Below, piece after piece: positions 15,659 to 47,199 of a DNA stretch of 64,000 bases. The position numbers were made by a program, and so were the translations under genes. The stretch spans positions 2,285,001 through 2,349,000 of the forward strand of contig CP073344.1 of NCBI GenBank assembly GCA_024397875.1, read 5' to 3'. The number at the start of each line of letters is the position of its first letter. The first letter of the stretch is position 1. The notes under the pieces were generated by a model, which saw nothing but the letters and a program-made list of their open reading frames with translations, did no database searches and was not told the origin of the DNA. The stretch is from Amphritea atlantica. GTDB taxonomy: Bacteria; Pseudomonadota; Gammaproteobacteria; Pseudomonadales; Balneatricaceae.

Positions 15659-18304
15659 TTATTCAGCCAGACTTTTAGTCAATACTTCAAAAACATCCCG
15701 GGACAGATCGCCACTGCGGTTGATCCGCTCCAGCTCAGCTTTCATCAACGCACTACGCTGAGACGGATAGCGCTTCCAGCGAGTTAGCGGTGTCAGCAAC
15801 CGTGATGCGATCTGGGGATTCTGTTTATTTAATACAATAATCTGATCCGCCAGAAAACGGTAGCCACTACCATCAGAATTATGGAAATTCAGCATATTCT
15901 GGGCGCAAAAGACCGATACCAGCGAGCGTATCTTATTCGGGTTAGCGCCATCGTAAGCCGGATGCTGTTGCAGTGTCTGCACCCGTGCCAGCGCCCCCTC
16001 TTTAGGATCACTTGCCTGAACCGCCAGCCACTGATTAACCACCAGCGATTCATTTTTCCAGCGCTGATAGAAAGTTTCCAACGCCTCATCAGCCTGCGCC
16101 TTAAACCCGGAGTGAACAATAAGCGTGAGCGCCGTCTGACTGTCAGTCATATTGTCGGCCTGACGGAACTGCTGCTGCGCCAGCTCGAGATATTCCTGCT
16201 TCTCAGTAGCCATCAGGTAAGACAACGCAAGGCTCTTCAGGCTTCGGCGAGCCACAGAGGCGGCGTCAGGGCTATAGGGGTCTGCGGTATTGTTGTCCTG
16301 ATAAACCCTGAGGAACAGTGGCTCGAGCTGATTGGCAATGGAATCCCTGACAAAACGACGAACCCGGTAGATCGCATCAACATCGATCACCTCAGCCAAC
16401 TCGCTGAGGTAGGCTTCTGACGGCAGTGTCAGCACTTTGGCAACCATCGCCCTATCCAGCGTGGTGTCACTCAGCACCTGCTCATAGGCATCAACCAGCG
16501 CCGGATCAAGTATCAGCTCCCGCCCTTGCTGATGATCGGTAATCAACTCATTCATAATACCTACCGCCAACTGCTGTGCGGCATCCCAGCGATTAAACCC
16601 ATCGCTGTCATGCTGCATCAGAAACACCAACTGCTCACGGCTGTAGGGGAACGTCAACTTTACCGGTGCAGAGAAGCCCCGCAGTAATGAAGGAACCGGC
16701 TCTACCGGGATATTATCAAAAACAAAACTCTGCTCAGTGGCAATAAACTCCAGCACCTCAGTGTTTGCACCGCCCTGCAGCGGTATATCCTGTCCCTGGC
16801 TATCGAGCAGACCCACGGCAACGGGAATCAAAAACGGCTGCTTTGTCGCCATATCGGGGGTTGCCGGGCAGCTCTGATGCATATGCAGCGTATAGCGCTG
16901 ATTTTGCGCATCATACTCACCGGTCACAGAAACCTTCGGCGTTCCTGACTGACTGTACCAGAGCTTAAACCGGCTCATATCACGACCGGAGACATCGGCC
17001 ATCGCCTGAACAAAGTTATCGGTCGTCACCGCCTGGCCATCATGACGTTTAAAATAGAGATCTGAACCTTTACGGAAGGTCTCCGCCCCCAACAGGGTAT
17101 GCAGCATACGCACCACCTCACAACCTTTCTCATACACTGTCAGCGTATAAAAGTTGGAGATCTCGATAAATGAAGCGGGACGAACCGGATGAGACATCGG
17201 ACCGGCATCCTCCGCAAACTGCGCCGTGCGCAACAGGGTAACATCCTCGATCCGTTTGACCGTTTGGGAGTTCATATCCGCTGAGAACTGCGAATCACGG
17301 AAAACAGTAAAGCCCTCTTTAAGGCTCAGTTGGAACCAGTCCCGACAGGTTACCCGGTTACCGGACCAGTTATGAAAATACTCATGGGCCACAACCCCTT
17401 CTACCCGTTGAAAGCCTGCGTCAACGGTCGTTTCAGCATGCGCAAGCACGCAGGAGGTATTGAAAATGTTAAGGCCTTTATTCTCCATCGCTCCCATATT
17501 AAAGAAGTCGACTGCGACGATCATAAAGATATCCAGGTCGTACTCTCGACCATAGACCTCTTCATCCCATTTCATCGAGTGTTTCAAAGAGGTCATGGCA
17601 TACTCAAGCTTATCCAGATCCTTCTCTTCAGCAAAGATCTTCAGCACGACATGACGTCCTGAACAGGTGGTATAACGATCCTCGATAAACTCAAGATCAC
17701 CGCCGACAAGGGCAAACAGATACGCTGGTTTGGGAAACGGGTCCTGCCATCTGACCCAGTGCCGGCCATCATCCTCTTCACCCGCATCGACCATATTGCC
17801 ATTCGACAACAACACCGGATAGCGCTGTTTATCCGCTACAATCGTGGTTTCAAACAGCGCCATTACATCAGGGCGATCCGGATAAAAAGTAATACGTCGG
17901 AAGCCTTCTGCTTCACACTGTGTGCAAAACATACCATCAGATTTATAGAGCCCTTCCAGCGCAGTATTATTCTGCGGCTCGATACGTGTAATACATTCAA
18001 GGGTGAAAGTGTCTGGCAGATTCGGGATACTCAGCTGCTCACCCAGCCGGCGGTAATCCTTTTCGCTGAGCACTTCACCATCGATACTCAGCCGCTGTAA
18101 TTCAAGTGTCTCATGTCCATCCAGTACCAGAGGGTGCTGACGGTTCGCAGAATCAGGGTTGCGGGAGTAGCGAACCTGAGAACGAACCAGCGTTTGCTCC
18201 TCTTCCAGTTCAAAACGCAACTCGGTTTGCTCCACCAGAAAAGCGGGAACCTCATAATCTTTTAAATAGATAACACTCGGTTGCTCTGTAGCTGACTGAC
18301 TCAT
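15659..18304 (-). CDS. pepN: Aminopeptidase N
   Basis: PepN is the major cytosolic M1-family zinc aminopeptidase that removes N-terminal residues during peptide turnover. The 881-residue protein has the substrate-binding GAMEN motif (271-275), the zinc site HEYFH (307-311) with the third ligand E330, and the all-helical C-terminal domain. Length matches gammaproteobacterial PepN. ATG start is clear; the gene stands alone. Confidence 0.97.
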   Translation of the reverse strand: MSQSATEQPSVIYLKDYEVPAFLVEQTELRFELEEEQTLVRSQVRYSRNPDSANRQHPLVLDGHETLELQRLSIDGEVLSEKDYRRLGEQLSIPNLPDTFTLECITRIEPQNNTALEGLYKSDGMFCTQCEAEGFRRITFYPDRPDVMALFETTIVADKQRYPVLLSNGNMVDAGEEDDGRHWVRWQDPFPKPAYLFALVGGDLEFIEDRYTTCSGRHVVLKIFAEEKDLDKLEYAMTSLKHSMKWDEEVYGREYDLDIFMIVAVDFFNMGAMENKGLNIFNTSCVLAHAETTVDAGFQRVEGVVAHEYFHNWSGNRVTCRDWFQLSLKEGFTVFRDSQFSADMNSQTVKRIEDVTLLRTAQFAEDAGPMSHPVRPASFIEISNFYTLTVYEKGCEVVRMLHTLLGAETFRKGSDLYFKRHDGQAVTTDNFVQAMADVSGRDMSRFKLWYSQSGTPKVSVTGEYDAQNQRYTLHMHQSCPATPDMATKQPFLIPVAVGLLDSQGQDIPLQGGANTEVLEFIATEQSFVFDNIPVEPVPSLLRGFSAPVKLTFPYSREQLVFLMQHDSDGFNRWDAAQQLAVGIMNELITDHQQGRELILDPALVDAYEQVLSDTTLDRAMVAKVLTLPSEAYLSELAEVIDVDAIYRVRRFVRDSIANQLEPLFLRVYQDNNTADPYSPDAASVARRSLKSLALSYLMATEKQEYLELAQQQFRQADNMTDSQTALTLIVHSGFKAQADEALETFYQRWKNESLVVNQWLAVQASDPKEGALARVQTLQQHPAYDGANPNKIRSLVSVFCAQNMLNFHNSDGSGYRFLADQIIVLNKQNPQIASRLLTPLTRWKRYPSQRSALMKAELERINRSGDLSRDVFEVLTKSLAE

Positions 18305-24917: not shown

Positions 24918-24994
24918 TGGCGGAATGGACGGGACTCGAACCCGCGACCCCCTGCGTGACAGGCAGGTATTCTAACCAACTGAACTACCACTCC
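24918..24994 (-). tRNA. tRNA-Asp (GUC), copy 5 in transcription order
   Basis: 77 bases including encoded CCA. Acceptor GGAGTGG pairs with CCATTCC; anticodon loop CTGTCAC gives GUC; T-arm GCGGGTTCGAGTCCCGT is canonical. It is the promoter-distal gene of the array. Confidence 0.97.
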
Positions 24995-25001
24995 GCATTG
25001 T

Positions 25002-25075
25002 ACGGGACTCGAACCCGCGACCACCATCCCCACACATGTGACAGACCGGCAATCGAACCATTTGAAACACCACTT
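25002..25075 (-). pseudogene. tRNA-Asp-like relic, repeat unit 1
   Basis: On the minus strand it keeps the tRNA-Asp T-arm (GCGGGTTCGAGTCCCGT) and the anticodon loop CTGTCAC, and loosely the D-arm. The anticodon stem does not pair, there is an insertion after it, and the acceptor arms do not match. It lies in the Val-Asp spacer. Confidence 0.7.
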
Positions 25076-25106
25076 TACAGTGGTTGAAGCTTTCGCTTCA
25101 GCTTAG

Positions 25107-25182
25107 TGGTGGGCGTGGAGAGGCTTGAACTCCCGACATTCGCCTTGTAAGGGCGACGCTCTCCCAACTGAGCTACACGCCC
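25107..25182 (-). tRNA. tRNA-Val (UAC), copy 5
   Basis: 76 bases with encoded CCA; acceptor GGGCGTG/CACGCCC, anticodon loop CTTACAA (UAC). This copy alone has A instead of G at T-loop position 57 (TTCAAGC), a tolerated purine change. Confidence 0.97.
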
Positions 25183-25321
25183 ACTAAGCATTTGGCTTAT
25201 TACGATCTCTTCAGCACTTCGAAAAGAAAGAAACATATAGCAGCAGATCGGGCGGACTTCACCGCGAACCGTTACTATGGAAAATGACTGGCAGGAATTC
25301 TAACCTTTCATCTTCAAATAG

Positions 25322-25398
25322 TGGCGGAATGGACGGGACTCGAACCCGCGACCCCCTGCGTGACAGGCAGGTATTCTAACCAACTGAACTACCACTCC
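25322..25398 (-). tRNA. tRNA-Asp (GUC), copy 4
   Basis: Identical in sequence to the tRNA-Asp at 24918-24994, shifted by 404 bases; cloverleaf and CCA intact. Confidence 0.97.
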
Positions 25399-25405
25399 GC
25401 ATTGT

Positions 25406-25479
25406 ACGGGACTCGAACCCGCGACCACCATCCCCACACATGTGACAGACCGGCAATCGAACCATTTGAAACACCACTT
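25406..25479 (-). pseudogene. tRNA-Asp-like relic, repeat unit 2
   Basis: Same relic as at 25002-25075, shifted by 404 bases. T-arm and anticodon loop are kept; acceptor and anticodon stems are broken. Confidence 0.7.
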
Positions 25480-25510
25480 TACAGTGGTTGAAGCTTTCGC
25501 TTCAGCTTAG

Positions 25511-25586
25511 TGGTGGGCGTGGAGAGGCTCGAACTCCCGACATTCGCCTTGTAAGGGCGACGCTCTCCCAACTGAGCTACACGCCC
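25511..25586 (-). tRNA. tRNA-Val (UAC), copy 4
   Basis: Intact 76-base cloverleaf with encoded CCA and the consensus T-loop TTCGAGC. Confidence 0.97.
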
Positions 25587-25725
25587 ACTAAGCATTTGGC
25601 TTATTACGATCTCTTCAGCACTTCGAAAAGAAAGAAACATATAGCAGCAGATCGGGCGGACTTCACCGCGAACCGTTACTACGGAAAATGACTGGCAGGA
25701 ATTCTAACCTTTCATCTTCAAATAG

Positions 25726-25802
25726 TGGCGGAATGGACGGGACTCGAACCCGCGACCCCCTGCGTGACAGGCAGGTATTCTAACCAACTGAACTACCACT
25801 CC
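25726..25802 (-). tRNA. tRNA-Asp (GUC), copy 3
   Basis: Same sequence as the other tRNA-Asp copies; encoded CCA, GUC anticodon. Confidence 0.97.
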
Positions 25803-25809
25803 GCATTGT

Positions 25810-25883
25810 ACGGGACTCGAACCCGCGACCACCATCCCCACACATGTGACAGACCGGCAATCGAACCATTTGAAACACCACTT
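25810..25883 (-). pseudogene. tRNA-Asp-like relic, repeat unit 3
   Basis: Third copy of the relic in the Val-Asp spacer, unchanged from the others. Confidence 0.7.
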
Positions 25884-25914
25884 TACAGTGGTTGAAGCTT
25901 TCGCTTCAGCTTAG

Positions 25915-25990
25915 TGGTGGGCGTGGAGAGGCTCGAACTCCCGACATTCGCCTTGTAAGGGCGACGCTCTCCCAACTGAGCTACACGCCC
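25915..25990 (-). tRNA. tRNA-Val (UAC), copy 3
   Basis: Intact tRNA-Val with encoded CCA, same as the copies at 25511 and 26319. Confidence 0.97.
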
Positions 25991-26129
25991 ACTAAGCATT
26001 TGGCTTATTACGATCTCTTCAGCACTTCGAAAAGAAAGAAACATATAGCAGCAGATCGGGCGGACTTCACCGCGAACCGTTACTACGGAAAATGACTGGC
26101 AGGAATTCTAACCTTTCATCTTCAAATAG

Positions 26130-26206
26130 TGGCGGAATGGACGGGACTCGAACCCGCGACCCCCTGCGTGACAGGCAGGTATTCTAACCAACTGAACTAC
26201 CACTCC
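26130..26206 (-). tRNA. tRNA-Asp (GUC), copy 2
   Basis: Same sequence as the other tRNA-Asp copies; encoded CCA, GUC anticodon. Confidence 0.97.
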
Positions 26207-26213
26207 GCATTGT

Positions 26214-26287
26214 ACGGGACTCGAACCCGCGACCACCATCCCCACACATGTGACAGACCGGCAATCGAACCATTTGAAACACCACTT
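26214..26287 (-). pseudogene. tRNA-Asp-like relic, repeat unit 4
   Basis: Fourth copy of the relic. The promoter-proximal Val-Asp spacer (26611-26688) has no clear counterpart, only a short stretch with GACCACCA. Confidence 0.7.
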
Positions 26288-26318
26288 TACAGTGGTTGAA
26301 GCTTTCGCTTCAGCTTAG

Positions 26319-26394
26319 TGGTGGGCGTGGAGAGGCTCGAACTCCCGACATTCGCCTTGTAAGGGCGACGCTCTCCCAACTGAGCTACACGCCC
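26319..26394 (-). tRNA. tRNA-Val (UAC), copy 2
   Basis: Intact tRNA-Val with encoded CCA. The spacer following it (transcript direction of the array, toward 26318) contains the small stems GAAGC/GCTTC and CCACT/AGTGG before the relic. Confidence 0.97.
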
Positions 26395-26533
26395 ACTAAG
26401 CATTTGGCTTTTTACGATCTTTTCAGCACTTCGAAAAGAAAGAAACATACAGTAGCAGATCGGGCGAACTTCACCGCGAGCCGTTACTATGGAAAATGAC
26501 TGGCAGGGATTCTAACCTTTCATCTTCAAATAG

Positions 26534-26610
26534 TGGCGGAATGGACGGGACTCGAACCCGCGACCCCCTGCGTGACAGGCAGGTATTCTAACCAACTGAA
26601 CTACCACTCC
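26534..26610 (-). tRNA. tRNA-Asp (GUC), copy 1
   Basis: First tRNA-Asp of the transcript; intact, CCA encoded. It follows tRNA-Val copy 1 after a unique 78-base spacer. Confidence 0.97.
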
Positions 26611-26688
26611 GCATTGCACGACCACCACATCTACCTTACAGCGACAGACGGGCTACCGGCCAATGAAACTTACGTTTCGTATTCGATC

Positions 26689-26764
26689 TGGTGGGCGTGG
26701 AGAGGCTCGAACTCCCGACATTCGCCTTGTAAGGGCGACGCTCTCCCAACTGAGCTACACGCCC
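26689..26764 (-). tRNA. tRNA-Val (UAC), copy 1 (first gene of the array)
   Basis: Intact 76-base tRNA-Val with CCA, nearest to the promoter at 26780-26807. Confidence 0.97.
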
Positions 26765-44048: not shown

Positions 44049-44357
44049 ATGATCAACTCTACTTTTGATTTCAAAAAGCCTTTCGAATCTGCTCAGGCTC
44101 TGATGGGCCTGCAAACATCTACAATCACTAAAACCGTTGAACTGCAGAAGAAGTCTGCTGAAGAACTGGCTGCTTTCTTCAAAACCGAAGCCGAGAAAGC
44201 GAAAGATCTGAAGACTCCTGAAGAGTTTGTAAAGTTCAACGTTGAGTCTAATAAAGCGCTGTACGAACTACTGAAAGCACAGGGCGAAGCCTTCACCTCT
44301 CTGGCTAAAGAGTCAGGCGAAGAGACGATGGCTGAAATCAAGAAACTGGCTAGCTAA
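44049..44357 (+). CDS. Phasin family protein 1
   Basis: 102 residues, helical and free of Cys, with the phasin-type pattern (FESAQALMGLQTSTITKTVELQ in parts, then EELAAFFKTEAEKAKDL). Phasins coat polyhydroxyalkanoate granules and link to the synthase complex; no phaC or phaB gene is in the window. It is a close paralogue of phasin 2. CGGAG lies 5-6 bases upstream of ATG, and a terminator follows, so it is monocistronic. Confidence 0.9.
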   Translation: MINSTFDFKKPFESAQALMGLQTSTITKTVELQKKSAEELAAFFKTEAEKAKDLKTPEEFVKFNVESNKALYELLKAQGEAFTSLAKESGEETMAEIKKLAS

Positions 44358-44505: not shown

Positions 44506-44514
44506 AGACTTCAT

Positions 44515-44529
44515 TGTTGCACTGCAACA
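44515..44529. promoter_or_regulatory. Second operator-like site in the phasin 2 leader
   Basis: TGTTGC-ACT-GCAACA, a perfect 6-bp inverted repeat at about the transcription start, mirroring the second site at phasin 1. Confidence 0.65.
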
Positions 44530-44549
44530 TAAATTACTGGAGAACTACC

Positions 44550-44855
44550 ATGACCAACACAATCGATTTCAGCAAGTCTTTCGAATCAGTAAAATCTCTG
44601 ATGGAGATGCAGGCTGCGACTATCACTAAGTCTGTTGAGCTGCAGAAAAAAGCGGGTGAAGACCTGGCGGCTTTCTTCAAGACTGAAGCTGAAAAAGCGA
44701 AAGAACTGAAAACCCCTGAAGACGTTGTTAAATTCAACGTTGAAGCTAACACTTGCCTGTTCGAACTGCTGAAAGCACAGGGCGAAGCATTCACTGAGCT
44801 GGCTAAATCAGCAAGTGAAGAAGCAATGGCTGAAGTCACTAAATTAACTAAGTAA
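44550..44855 (+). CDS. Phasin family protein 2
   Basis: 101 residues, strongly similar to phasin 1 along its whole length (FESVKSLMEMQAATITKSVEL, then KAGEDLAAFFKTEAEKAKEL). The frame is open from 44514, but the ATG at 44550 has GGAG at 7 bases and aligns with its paralogue. The two genes are a tandem duplication, each with its own promoter and terminator. Confidence 0.9.
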   Translation: MTNTIDFSKSFESVKSLMEMQAATITKSVELQKKAGEDLAAFFKTEAEKAKELKTPEDVVKFNVEANTCLFELLKAQGEAFTELAKSASEEAMAEVTKLTK

Positions 44856-45133: not shown

Positions 45134-45568
45134 ATGACACTGTTAAAACGTGAACAGATTCCAACGGTAGGGCTCGACTTCATGAACCACGACCACCAAG
45201 CAGCGGCCGAACAGATAAACCAGCTGGATCAGTTAATCCGGCAGACTCGTCAAGGAGATAAAGAATCACAGCAACAGATCGAGCCGCTCCTGAAAGAGAT
45301 CTACGCGCACAGTGAGCACCATTTTGCTCATGAGGAAGCGGAGATGGTGCGGGTGAATTTTCCGGCTTATGAATGTCATAAAGGTGAGCATGAACGGGTG
45401 CTGGAAGAGCTCAATCAGGTACTGTTACAGTGGCAGAACAACCAGGATATTGAGCAGCTTGATGACTTCCTCAACACAACGCTGTGTCACTGGCTGATAA
45501 ACCATATCTCAACCATGGACAGCGTTACCGCCATGTTTGTCGGCCGATACGATCACGCTGTCGCCTGA
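45134..45568 (+). CDS. Bacteriohemerythrin
   Basis: 144 residues with the complete di-iron hemerythrin pattern: NHDHQAAAEQIN at the N terminus, then HSEHHFAHEEAEM (about 61-73), YECHKGEHERVL and LINHISTMD near the C terminus. It probably binds oxygen reversibly. The start is the ATG at 45134, GAGGG lying 8 bases upstream; the frame is open a few codons further from a TTG. It is single-domain and monocistronic. Confidence 0.92.
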   Translation: MTLLKREQIPTVGLDFMNHDHQAAAEQINQLDQLIRQTRQGDKESQQQIEPLLKEIYAHSEHHFAHEEAEMVRVNFPAYECHKGEHERVLEELNQVLLQWQNNQDIEQLDDFLNTTLCHWLINHISTMDSVTAMFVGRYDHAVA

Positions 45569-45715: not shown

Positions 45716-45743
45716 TGAACTTTACCTGAACTGGTGTCTCTAA
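45716..45743 (+). promoter_or_regulatory. Sigma-E-like promoter of small RNA unit 1
   Basis: GAACTT (45717-45722), a 16-base gap and TCTAA (45739-45743), close to the sigma-E consensus GGAACTT-N16-TCTRA. The upstream DNA is very A/T rich. Confidence 0.5.
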
Positions 45744-45750
45744 CTTTATA

Positions 45751-45814
45751 CATCAACGTACTATGCAAGACCGGAACTGCCCGGGGGAACCCCTTCCCTC
45801 CGGGCAGTTTTTTT
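45751..45814 (+). ncRNA. Candidate small RNA 1 (about 64 nt)
   Basis: A short unit with no open frame: start inferred 7-9 bases after the -10, a conserved unpaired 5' segment (CATCAACGTA, then CTATGCAAGACC) and a terminator hairpin AACTGCCCGG/CCGGGCAGTT (45775-45784 and 45800-45809) ending in seven T. An inner stem GGGAA/TTCCC extends the hairpin. It aligns without gaps to unit 2, 175 bases downstream. No known RNA family is recognised; expression is inferred. Confidence 0.5.
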
Positions 45815-45890
45815 ATAGGTCACAGTTTTTATAACACCCCTATCTCACCCATCCAGATCATTACACTCATATCAAAACATTATTTTTTGC

Positions 45891-45918
45891 TGAACTTTTT
45901 CACAGCTTCGCTCTCTAT
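45891..45918 (+). promoter_or_regulatory. Sigma-E-like promoter of small RNA unit 2
   Basis: GAACTT (45892-45897), a 16-base gap and TCTAT (45914-45918), with the same spacing as at unit 1. Confidence 0.48.
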
Positions 45919-45925
45919 ATATTTA

Positions 45926-45987
45926 CATCAACGTAATATGTAAAACCCTAACTGCCCGGAGGCCCCCTTCCCTCCGGGCAGTTTTTT
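45926..45987 (+). ncRNA. Candidate small RNA 2 (about 62 nt)
   Basis: Second copy of the unit: ACATCAACGTA, then ATATGTAAAACC, then the terminator arms AACTGCCCGG/CCGGGCAGTT (45950-45959 and 45974-45983) and six T. The loop side differs from unit 1 (inner stem GGAGG/CCTCC) while the outer stem and 5' segment are kept. It lies 151 bases upstream of the hisC start. Confidence 0.5.
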
Positions 45988-46137: not shown

Positions 46138-47199
46138 ATGAGTAGATACTGGAGCCCGGCCATCAGCCAGCTGACCCCCTATGTTCCGGGTGAACAGCCA
46201 AAGGTTGATAACCTGATTAAACTGAATACCAATGAAAACCCTTACCCGCCCTCCCCCAGGGTTGCTGAAGCGATAAATAACTATCCGAAAGAGCGTCTGC
46301 GCCTCTATTGCGATCCCGATGCCACAGCGCTTAAAAATGCACTGGCGAATCATTTTCAGCTGCAATACAACAACATTTTTGTGGGTAACGGTTCCGATGA
46401 AGTACTGGCACTGGCATTTATGGCTTTTTTCCGTCAGGAGAAGCCGCTGCTGTTGCCGGAAACTACCTATAGTTTCTACGATGTCTACTGTCACCTGTAT
46501 GACATTGAGTATCGTCAAATCCCGCTGACAAACGATTTTGAAATCAATTTTAGTGATTATGATCAGCCCAACGGCGGTATTATCTTCGCCAACCCCAATG
46601 CCCCTACTGGTCAGGAAACACCACTGGATCAGATAGAAACGCTACTGCAAAAAAACAGCGGTTCTCTGGTCATCGTTGATGAAGCCTATATCGATTTTGG
46701 CGGCAGCTCCGCGGTTGAGCTGACCCGCAAATATGACAATGTACTGGTGATTCAGACCTTCTCTAAATCCCGCAGCCTGGCAGGCCTTAGGATTGGCTTT
46801 GCCCTGGGACACCCAGACCTGATTGCCGGACTGGAACGGGTTAAAAACTCATTCAACTCTTACCCACTGGATAGTCTGGCAATTGCCGGCGCGGTTGCAG
46901 CACTTGAGGATACTGATTACTTCAATACAACCAACCAGAAAATAATCGATTGCCGCGAGTGGACCACGACCCAACTGGAGCAACTGGGTTTCAGGGTAAT
47001 CCCCTCTAAAACCAACTTTGTCTTCACCAGTCATAAATCGATCAGTGGCACCGAGCTGATGCAATATCTGCGCAGTAATAATCTACTGGTCAGACACTTC
47101 AGCAAACCGGGTATCGAGAACTTCCTGCGTATCACCATTGGCACTTCCGATGAGATGAATACCCTCATTGAAACCCTGAAACGGCATCCGCAGATCTGA
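46138..47199 (+). CDS. hisC: Histidinol-phosphate aminotransferase
   Basis: HisC converts imidazole acetol-phosphate to histidinol-phosphate in histidine synthesis. The 353-residue product has KLNTNENPYPPSP, GNGSDEVL, FANPNAPTGQ, VDEAYIDF and the PLP lysine in TFSKSRSLAGLRIG. The open frame runs back to 45988, into the small RNA 2 terminator; the family N terminus (MSRYWSPAI) begins at 46138. It stands apart from other his genes. A terminator follows. Confidence 0.93.
   Translation: MSRYWSPAISQLTPYVPGEQPKVDNLIKLNTNENPYPPSPRVAEAINNYPKERLRLYCDPDATALKNALANHFQLQYNNIFVGNGSDEVLALAFMAFFRQEKPLLLPETTYSFYDVYCHLYDIEYRQIPLTNDFEINFSDYDQPNGGIIFANPNAPTGQETPLDQIETLLQKNSGSLVIVDEAYIDFGGSSAVELTRKYDNVLVIQTFSKSRSLAGLRIGFALGHPDLIAGLERVKNSFNSYPLDSLAIAGAVAALEDTDYFNTTNQKIIDCREWTTTQLEQLGFRVIPSKTNFVFTSHKSISGTELMQYLRSNNLLVRHFSKPGIENFLRITIGTSDEMNTLIETLKRHPQI

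Follow-up and report, generated by a model that had tools for sequence, protein, structure and literature searches.

The circuit in which sigma-E-dependent small RNAs repress porin synthesis is known mainly from enterobacteria and vibrios, and the RNAs that act in it usually, although not universally, bind Hfq, while among paired small RNAs of the envelope the omrA and omrB genes are adjacent. RybB and MicA of Salmonella and E. coli are, in the accessible part of the source (PMC1804206), short intergenic RNAs with a sigma-E-type promoter carrying a GGAACTT -35 element and with a Rho-independent terminator, and they act on mRNAs of the major porin type; the Salmonella rybB and micA promoters are given there as almost GGAACTTTT, with GTCAAA as the -10 element. 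The 64,000-nucleotide stretch of Amphritea atlantica DNA analysed here (hereafter the window) contains two units of about 96 bases each, at 45717-45814 and 45892-45987 with a period of 175 bases, which share this design, action on a porin mRNA being here predicted only. Compared with RybB and MicA as that part of the source describes them, the units have no Rfam match, a -10 element of TCTAA or TCTAT instead of GTCAAA, another seed and a tandem arrangement. OmrA and OmrB likewise form a set of two similar small RNAs with a common conserved 5′ seed and envelope-related target mRNAs, but they are activated by OmpR according to the accessible part of PMC12692685, whereas the units carry a sigma-E-like promoter and match no Rfam family. 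VrrA of Vibrio cholerae is a further parallel that differs, in the portion of PMC2628432 available, by its length of 140 nt and its target ompA; no similarity of the units to VrrA was found in a comparison made through Rfam alone. There is little doubt, judged from the sequence, that the units represent real, conserved small RNA genes, and they probably constitute a new small RNA family, without an Rfam match, of an already known functional kind. The fuller reading, in which sigma-E would transcribe the twin RNAs and these would repress one porin through seed pairing, is favoured here as reasonably probable.

Both units lie on the forward strand. The putative sigma-E-class promoter of unit 1 (45717-45743) consists of GAACTT at 45717-45722, a 16-base spacer and TCTAA at 45739-45743, and is followed by predicted small RNA 1 (45750-45814), which comprises the 5′ seed ACATCAAC at 45750-45757, GCAAGACC, a hairpin at 45773-45811 and a U tract to 45814. 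The promoter of unit 2 (45892-45918), again putatively of the sigma-E class, has GAACTT at 45892-45897, a 16-base spacer and TCTAT at 45914-45918, and predicted small RNA 2 (45925-45987) bears ACATCAAC at 45925-45932, a hairpin at 45950-45983 and a U tract to 45987; the exact 5′ ends of both RNAs are putative. The inter-unit spacer (45815-45891, no strand) is not conserved. GAACTT, the 16-base gaps, TCTAA and TCTAT, ACATCAAC and the 175-base period had all been placed correctly in the original prediction, whereas its gap-free alignment of the copies did not hold, as in the 20-unit alignment they are offset by a single gap that falls in the terminator loop; compared without gaps, they agree at 67 of 99 positions. 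The original prediction had also stated that neither unit carries an open frame, and this stood in so far as the ATG of unit 1 is absent from relatives in the family alignment, by which a peptide-coding reading was ruled out, although a 69-aa GTG frame (45734-45943) overlaps mechanically. No further copies of the unit were found elsewhere in the genome.

A BLAST search with a 301-base query matched 15 of 57 genomes, namely the window's own, 13 congeners and one distant genome; three of the 13 congener matches span only 35 bases and the distant genome matches 22 bases of the terminator. The covariance search that had been suggested with the original prediction was run on 116 genomes of the family, using a model and alignment built from 20 of the 24 units with the four Aliamphritea-type units left out. 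Nineteen genomes matched: 15 of the 17 in the genus (Amphritea/Aliamphritea), where nine genomes hold two copies and six hold one, and four of the 99 outside it, which matched weakly (E 2.4e-4 to 0.07) and in no case with the 5′ segment. The two genus genomes without a unit, G004 and G013, are split into about 490 and 290 contigs respectively, and the porin query is likewise unmatched in them. When species genomes were scanned for the promoter plus ACATCAAC, 26 stretches were obtained, 13 of which belong to Amphritea, Aliamphritea or Oceanospirillales/Oceanospirillaceae bins, the named carriers being Amphritea atlantica, A. opalescens, A. balenae, A. pacifica and Aliamphritea spongicola; in the remaining 13, judged by eye, no terminator was seen. 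Mean pairwise identity in seven of the nine twin genomes (excluding G011 and G015, whose second copy is longer) was 0.86 and 0.81 for the units, 0.30 for the spacer, and 0.54 and 0.46 for the 75-base flanks. All 24 units extracted from 15 genomes contain ACATCAAC, a count to be read with the fact that the extraction pattern itself demanded CATCA, while BLAST and covariance detection did not. Loss of the unit in close relatives, or lack of conservation of the 5′ segment there, which was the computable outcome against which the original prediction had staked itself, was looked for and did not occur, and duplicated small RNAs of the stress-induced type, whose conserved 5′ end serves for pairing, still appear the best reading of the locus, the 5′ segment being present in every unit. 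No Rfam covariance match to RybB, MicA, OmrA/B or other small RNA families was found: at gathering score Rfam 15 returned ten tRNAs and nothing else for the whole window, at a relaxed threshold the locus gave E values of 0.42 or more with a best score of 18.9 bits (CyaR, cut-off 47; MicC, cut-off 90), and eight related loci gave no match.

The 5′ segment plus hairpin folds at -28.9 kcal/mol (z -4.5) in unit 1 and at -26.0 kcal/mol (z -6.6) in unit 2, with none of 200 shuffles as good in either case. Folding thereby confirmed the strong terminator hairpins that had been claimed, but the pairing-preserving change of the inner stem proved slight, with 3 of 14 pairs changed on both sides. Across 20 units 95.4% of the cells of the terminator helix are paired, eight of the ten cells with two-sided changes fall at one pair, and six of the 14 pairs are invariant. 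A scan with the terminator consensus listed the terminator of unit 2 and missed that of unit 1, yielding two terminator-like sites against 1.0 expected, so the scan alone gives no support. The Aliamphritea-type units (G001, G002, G003 and G012) have a different hairpin stem and keep the promoter form, the 5′ segment and a CUUCCC loop; in general the units possess a Rho-independent terminator of their own and lack a conserved coding frame, the Aliamphritea-type hairpins being without a long U tract.

By sequence, a sigma-E-type promoter of the form GAACTT-N15/16-TCTA stands directly upstream in 24 of 24 units, a form that the extraction pattern required, and the span from GAACTT to CATCA is 39 bases in 23 units and 38 in one. 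RpoE itself is encoded in the genome (315 bits against a cut-off of 236), and upstream of rpoE stands GGAACTT-N16-TCTTA, with -35 element and spacing equal to those of the units; the orthologue and the site before its gene together lend support to the promoter class. A GAACTT-N16-TCTAC site precedes a gene for an SH3-domain protein, a type that we take to be often under sigma-E. Genome-wide, GAACTT-N15/16-TCTA is not enriched (8 sites, compared with 18 of its reversed control), and of the six sites other than the units three or more sit within long reading frames, so that this pattern alone carries no weight; GTTGATGT occurs at 207 sites vs 84 for the reversed control, an excess that fits coding bias. 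Control of both units by sigma-E is considered very likely.

Other promoter-like sites were observed outside the genus. In g3, another genus of the family (loci L033, L034, L035, L036 in reverse complement, and L040; five loci read) a conserved GAACTTTT-N14-TCTAC site lies within about 300 bases upstream of a hisC-like gene and is followed by GGATCAG and then by two strong hairpins of -48 to -53 kcal/mol for 117 nt; Rfam gave no gathering match in L034 and L036 and none at E 0.05 in L033. This element could represent a sigma-E-type RNA that is unrelated to the units and occupies the equivalent chromosomal place. A weak model match (E 0.0015) at about 1500-1615 of L062 (G077, genus g2) has GAACTT, a TCTCAAA-like -10 element and a terminator hairpin whose loop is UUCCCCUU, lacks ACATCAAC, and is possibly another sigma-E-type small RNA.

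Porins were the first target guess, taken from the known circuit. Genes with PF13609 are present in 17 of 17 genus genomes, and one such porin (protein start MKKSxIALAVAGA), which we infer to be the major porin, has a leader that is strongly conserved across the genus. The seed CAUCAAC is the exact complement of GUUGAUG in the mRNA of this porin, and GTTGATG occurs exactly once in the leader plus the first 30 coding bases in all 15 genomes where the porin query matched, leader starts being predicted from the -10-like TATAGTAT. In ten genomes, the window's species included, it is found at -72 to -191 as the loop of a hairpin GCGYA-GUUGAUG-RCGY, and in five at -4, overlapping the ATG; no genome has both places. 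Within the hairpin stem a U-A pair has become C-G in G008 and the terminal pair G-U in G016, with the loop unchanged in both. Of 140 permutations of GTTGATG only GTTGATG itself is present in all 15 leaders and no other in ten or more, in a test that was not blind, having been prompted by the pattern already seen in the leaders. Seventeen 7-mers are common to the 15 leaders, among which GTTGATG alone sits at two quite different places, while another, AAAGTTT, shifts by about 15 bases. Among 435 background gene starts, obtained with a simple purpose-made frame caller, GUUGAUG is present between -150 and +20 in 18 and a hairpin of the porin-leader kind with GUUGAUG in none. A conserved seed complementary to the start of the porin mRNA is thus found in 15 of 15 genomes, with reservations of energy and folding that are given below. 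The PF13609 porin is rather likely to be a direct target of the RNAs, and this probable target is an addition to what the original prediction contained. The porin leader of G007 (L153/L254) is about 200 bases long, being lengthened by short repeats like AAAGGTTTGAC, and it retains the GUUGAUG hairpin at the 5′ end.

The genes, their conservation, promoter form, terminators and complementarity are read from the sequence, and expression, sigma-E dependence, use of Hfq and repression are put forward as predictions. During envelope stress sigma-E RNA polymerase would transcribe both free-standing RNA genes of about 60 nt, each RNA ending in its Rho-independent terminator and exposing an unpaired 5′ end with the seed CAUCAAC. 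The seed would pair with GUUGAUG near the start of the porin mRNA, in the loop of the leader hairpin (10 species) or at the start codon (5), and pairing would lower translation or stability of the mRNA so that fewer unfolded porins reach the stressed envelope. No match to an Hfq motif was seen in the roughly 10% of the genome scanned, a coverage at which the result is uninformative. If the model is true, the sigma-E small RNA/porin circuit extends to a marine lineage through an RNA without an Rfam family, which would suggest a repeated origin of the circuit; with the site placed in a leader hairpin or over the start codon and the seed unchanged, co-evolution of seed and site would be testable in a few sequenced species. 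No literature joining Amphritea with small RNA, or Oceanospirillales with small RNA, rpoE and porin, was found in a search that most subscription papers lay outside.

When duplex energy and the cost of opening are summed, the porin is equalled or surpassed by 30 of the 435 background genes with unit 1 and by 9 with unit 2, and for unit 1 another porin locus, L178, is slightly better than the candidate. Under global folding, the minimum-energy structures of 11 leaders out of 15, among them that of the window, have the site partly or wholly paired, while in local folding the ten hairpin sites are open (0.42-0.92) and the five start-codon sites hardly so (7-base opening 0.005-0.033). The change of site may have been a single event, because the tree leaves G005 and G008 unresolved. 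That the porin is unremarkable by energy and its site often predicted as paired would suit sigma-E-dependent RNAs whose main targets are other mRNAs, with the porin match secondary or coincidental, and a better target could lie elsewhere since the survey covered, besides the window, 20 stretches of 20 kb each and a selection of porin and OmpA-type genes; we regard this as unlikely, if with an appreciable chance of being right, the exact seed complement being present, at one or the other of two places, in all 15 genomes and the porin ribosome-binding site matching the RNA loop. Of six exact ACGTTGATGT occurrences in the genome two are the units themselves, and the other four were rejected as targets, lying within reading frames or their complement and none near a gene start: one faces a 684-aa frame on the other strand, one falls close to the 3′ end of a signal-peptide frame, and two are in frames that, from their translations, are presumably serine hydroxymethyltransferase-like and aldolase-like. 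The best background energy match of unit 1, at window positions 15743-15758 on the minus strand with two mismatches, is in the coding sequence of what we take to be pepN and was set aside as chance; when G-U pairs are counted, all of its 16 bases pair with the 5′ portion of unit 1. At three or fewer mismatches there were three matches where 0.39 were expected, and two of the three are the units themselves. For the OmpA family no conserved seed site was seen in 30 of the 46 listed matches (6 genomes) and one FadL-type locus that were read, some gene starts being guessed; L233 has GTTGATG at +15 and its relatives do not.

Two readings that depart further from seed pairing under sigma-E concern the neighbouring gene and the sigma factor. 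Downstream of the units lies an aminotransferase gene (46138-47199, forward strand; PF00155, 221 bits), presumably hisC, which is a syntenic marker and not part of the RNAs. Its start adjoins a unit in 15 of 15 genus loci, as might be expected were the units cis elements (leader or attenuator) of this gene, or terminator or repeat debris, rather than trans-acting; each unit, however, has its own promoter and terminator ahead of the gene and an invariant unpaired 5′ segment, the Aliamphritea-type units differ in terminator stem yet retain the promoter and the 5′ segment, and the genome holds no additional copies, all of which makes a cis role scarcely credible. Among 30 hisC-like loci from 60 genomes the unit was absent from the 25 that belong to other genera. 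Transcription by another ECF sigma factor or under a different regulator, outside the RpoE envelope response, would accommodate a second, weaker ECF-type match in the genome (45 bits, below cut-off) and a -10 element unlike the GTCAAA of Salmonella rybB and micA as given in the accessible part of PMC1804206, but rpoE itself has GAACTT-N16-TCTTA and the -35 element and spacing are fixed genus-wide, and this seems very improbable.

The sigma-E-dependent, porin-directed reading admits an extension through the terminator loop, whose conserved CCCCUUCCC had been marked as a possible second seed before targets were looked at. At the porin ribosome-binding site, which matches this loop, 11 of the 15 genomes have GAAGGGG and four have AAAGGGG; GAAGGGG is found at the ribosome-binding site of one of the 435 background genes, and a 6- or 7-base loop complement there together with a seed complement in none. 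In addition, UAGUACGUU is present in 14 of 15 porin leaders; AACGUACUA, its complement in unit 1 of the window, lies in a part of the RNA that varies between species. A two-handed switch, in which the seed CAUCAAC and the loop CCCCUUC would pair with the hairpin loop or start codon and with GAAGGGG respectively, is a doubtful proposal. Since the order of the two main porin sites in the leader-hairpin species would not let a single RNA molecule form one uninterrupted duplex with both, RNAs from the twin genes could share one mRNA; if true, such joint occupancy would explain the keeping of tandem copies with an identical seed.

Phylogeny of the hisC-like gene unites all nine twin genomes in a clade (96/96) that the twin state marks, and groups the four genomes of the Aliamphritea type in a second (100/100), without resolving single-copy G008 and G005. 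When the units themselves are placed on a tree, first copies from seven genomes cluster with modest support (82/93) and the second copies form no clean group, a pattern that fits, without proof, a single old tandem duplication. The upstream neighbour is a hemerythrin-domain gene (45134-45568, forward strand; PF01814, 54.8 bits). Elsewhere in the window two similar tandem frames of about 100 aa (44049-44357 and 44514-44855), without a Pfam match at E 0.001, were read as phasin-like, and ten tRNA genes on the minus strand (24918-26764) form five alternating Asp/Val pairs in an apparently repeated tandem array.
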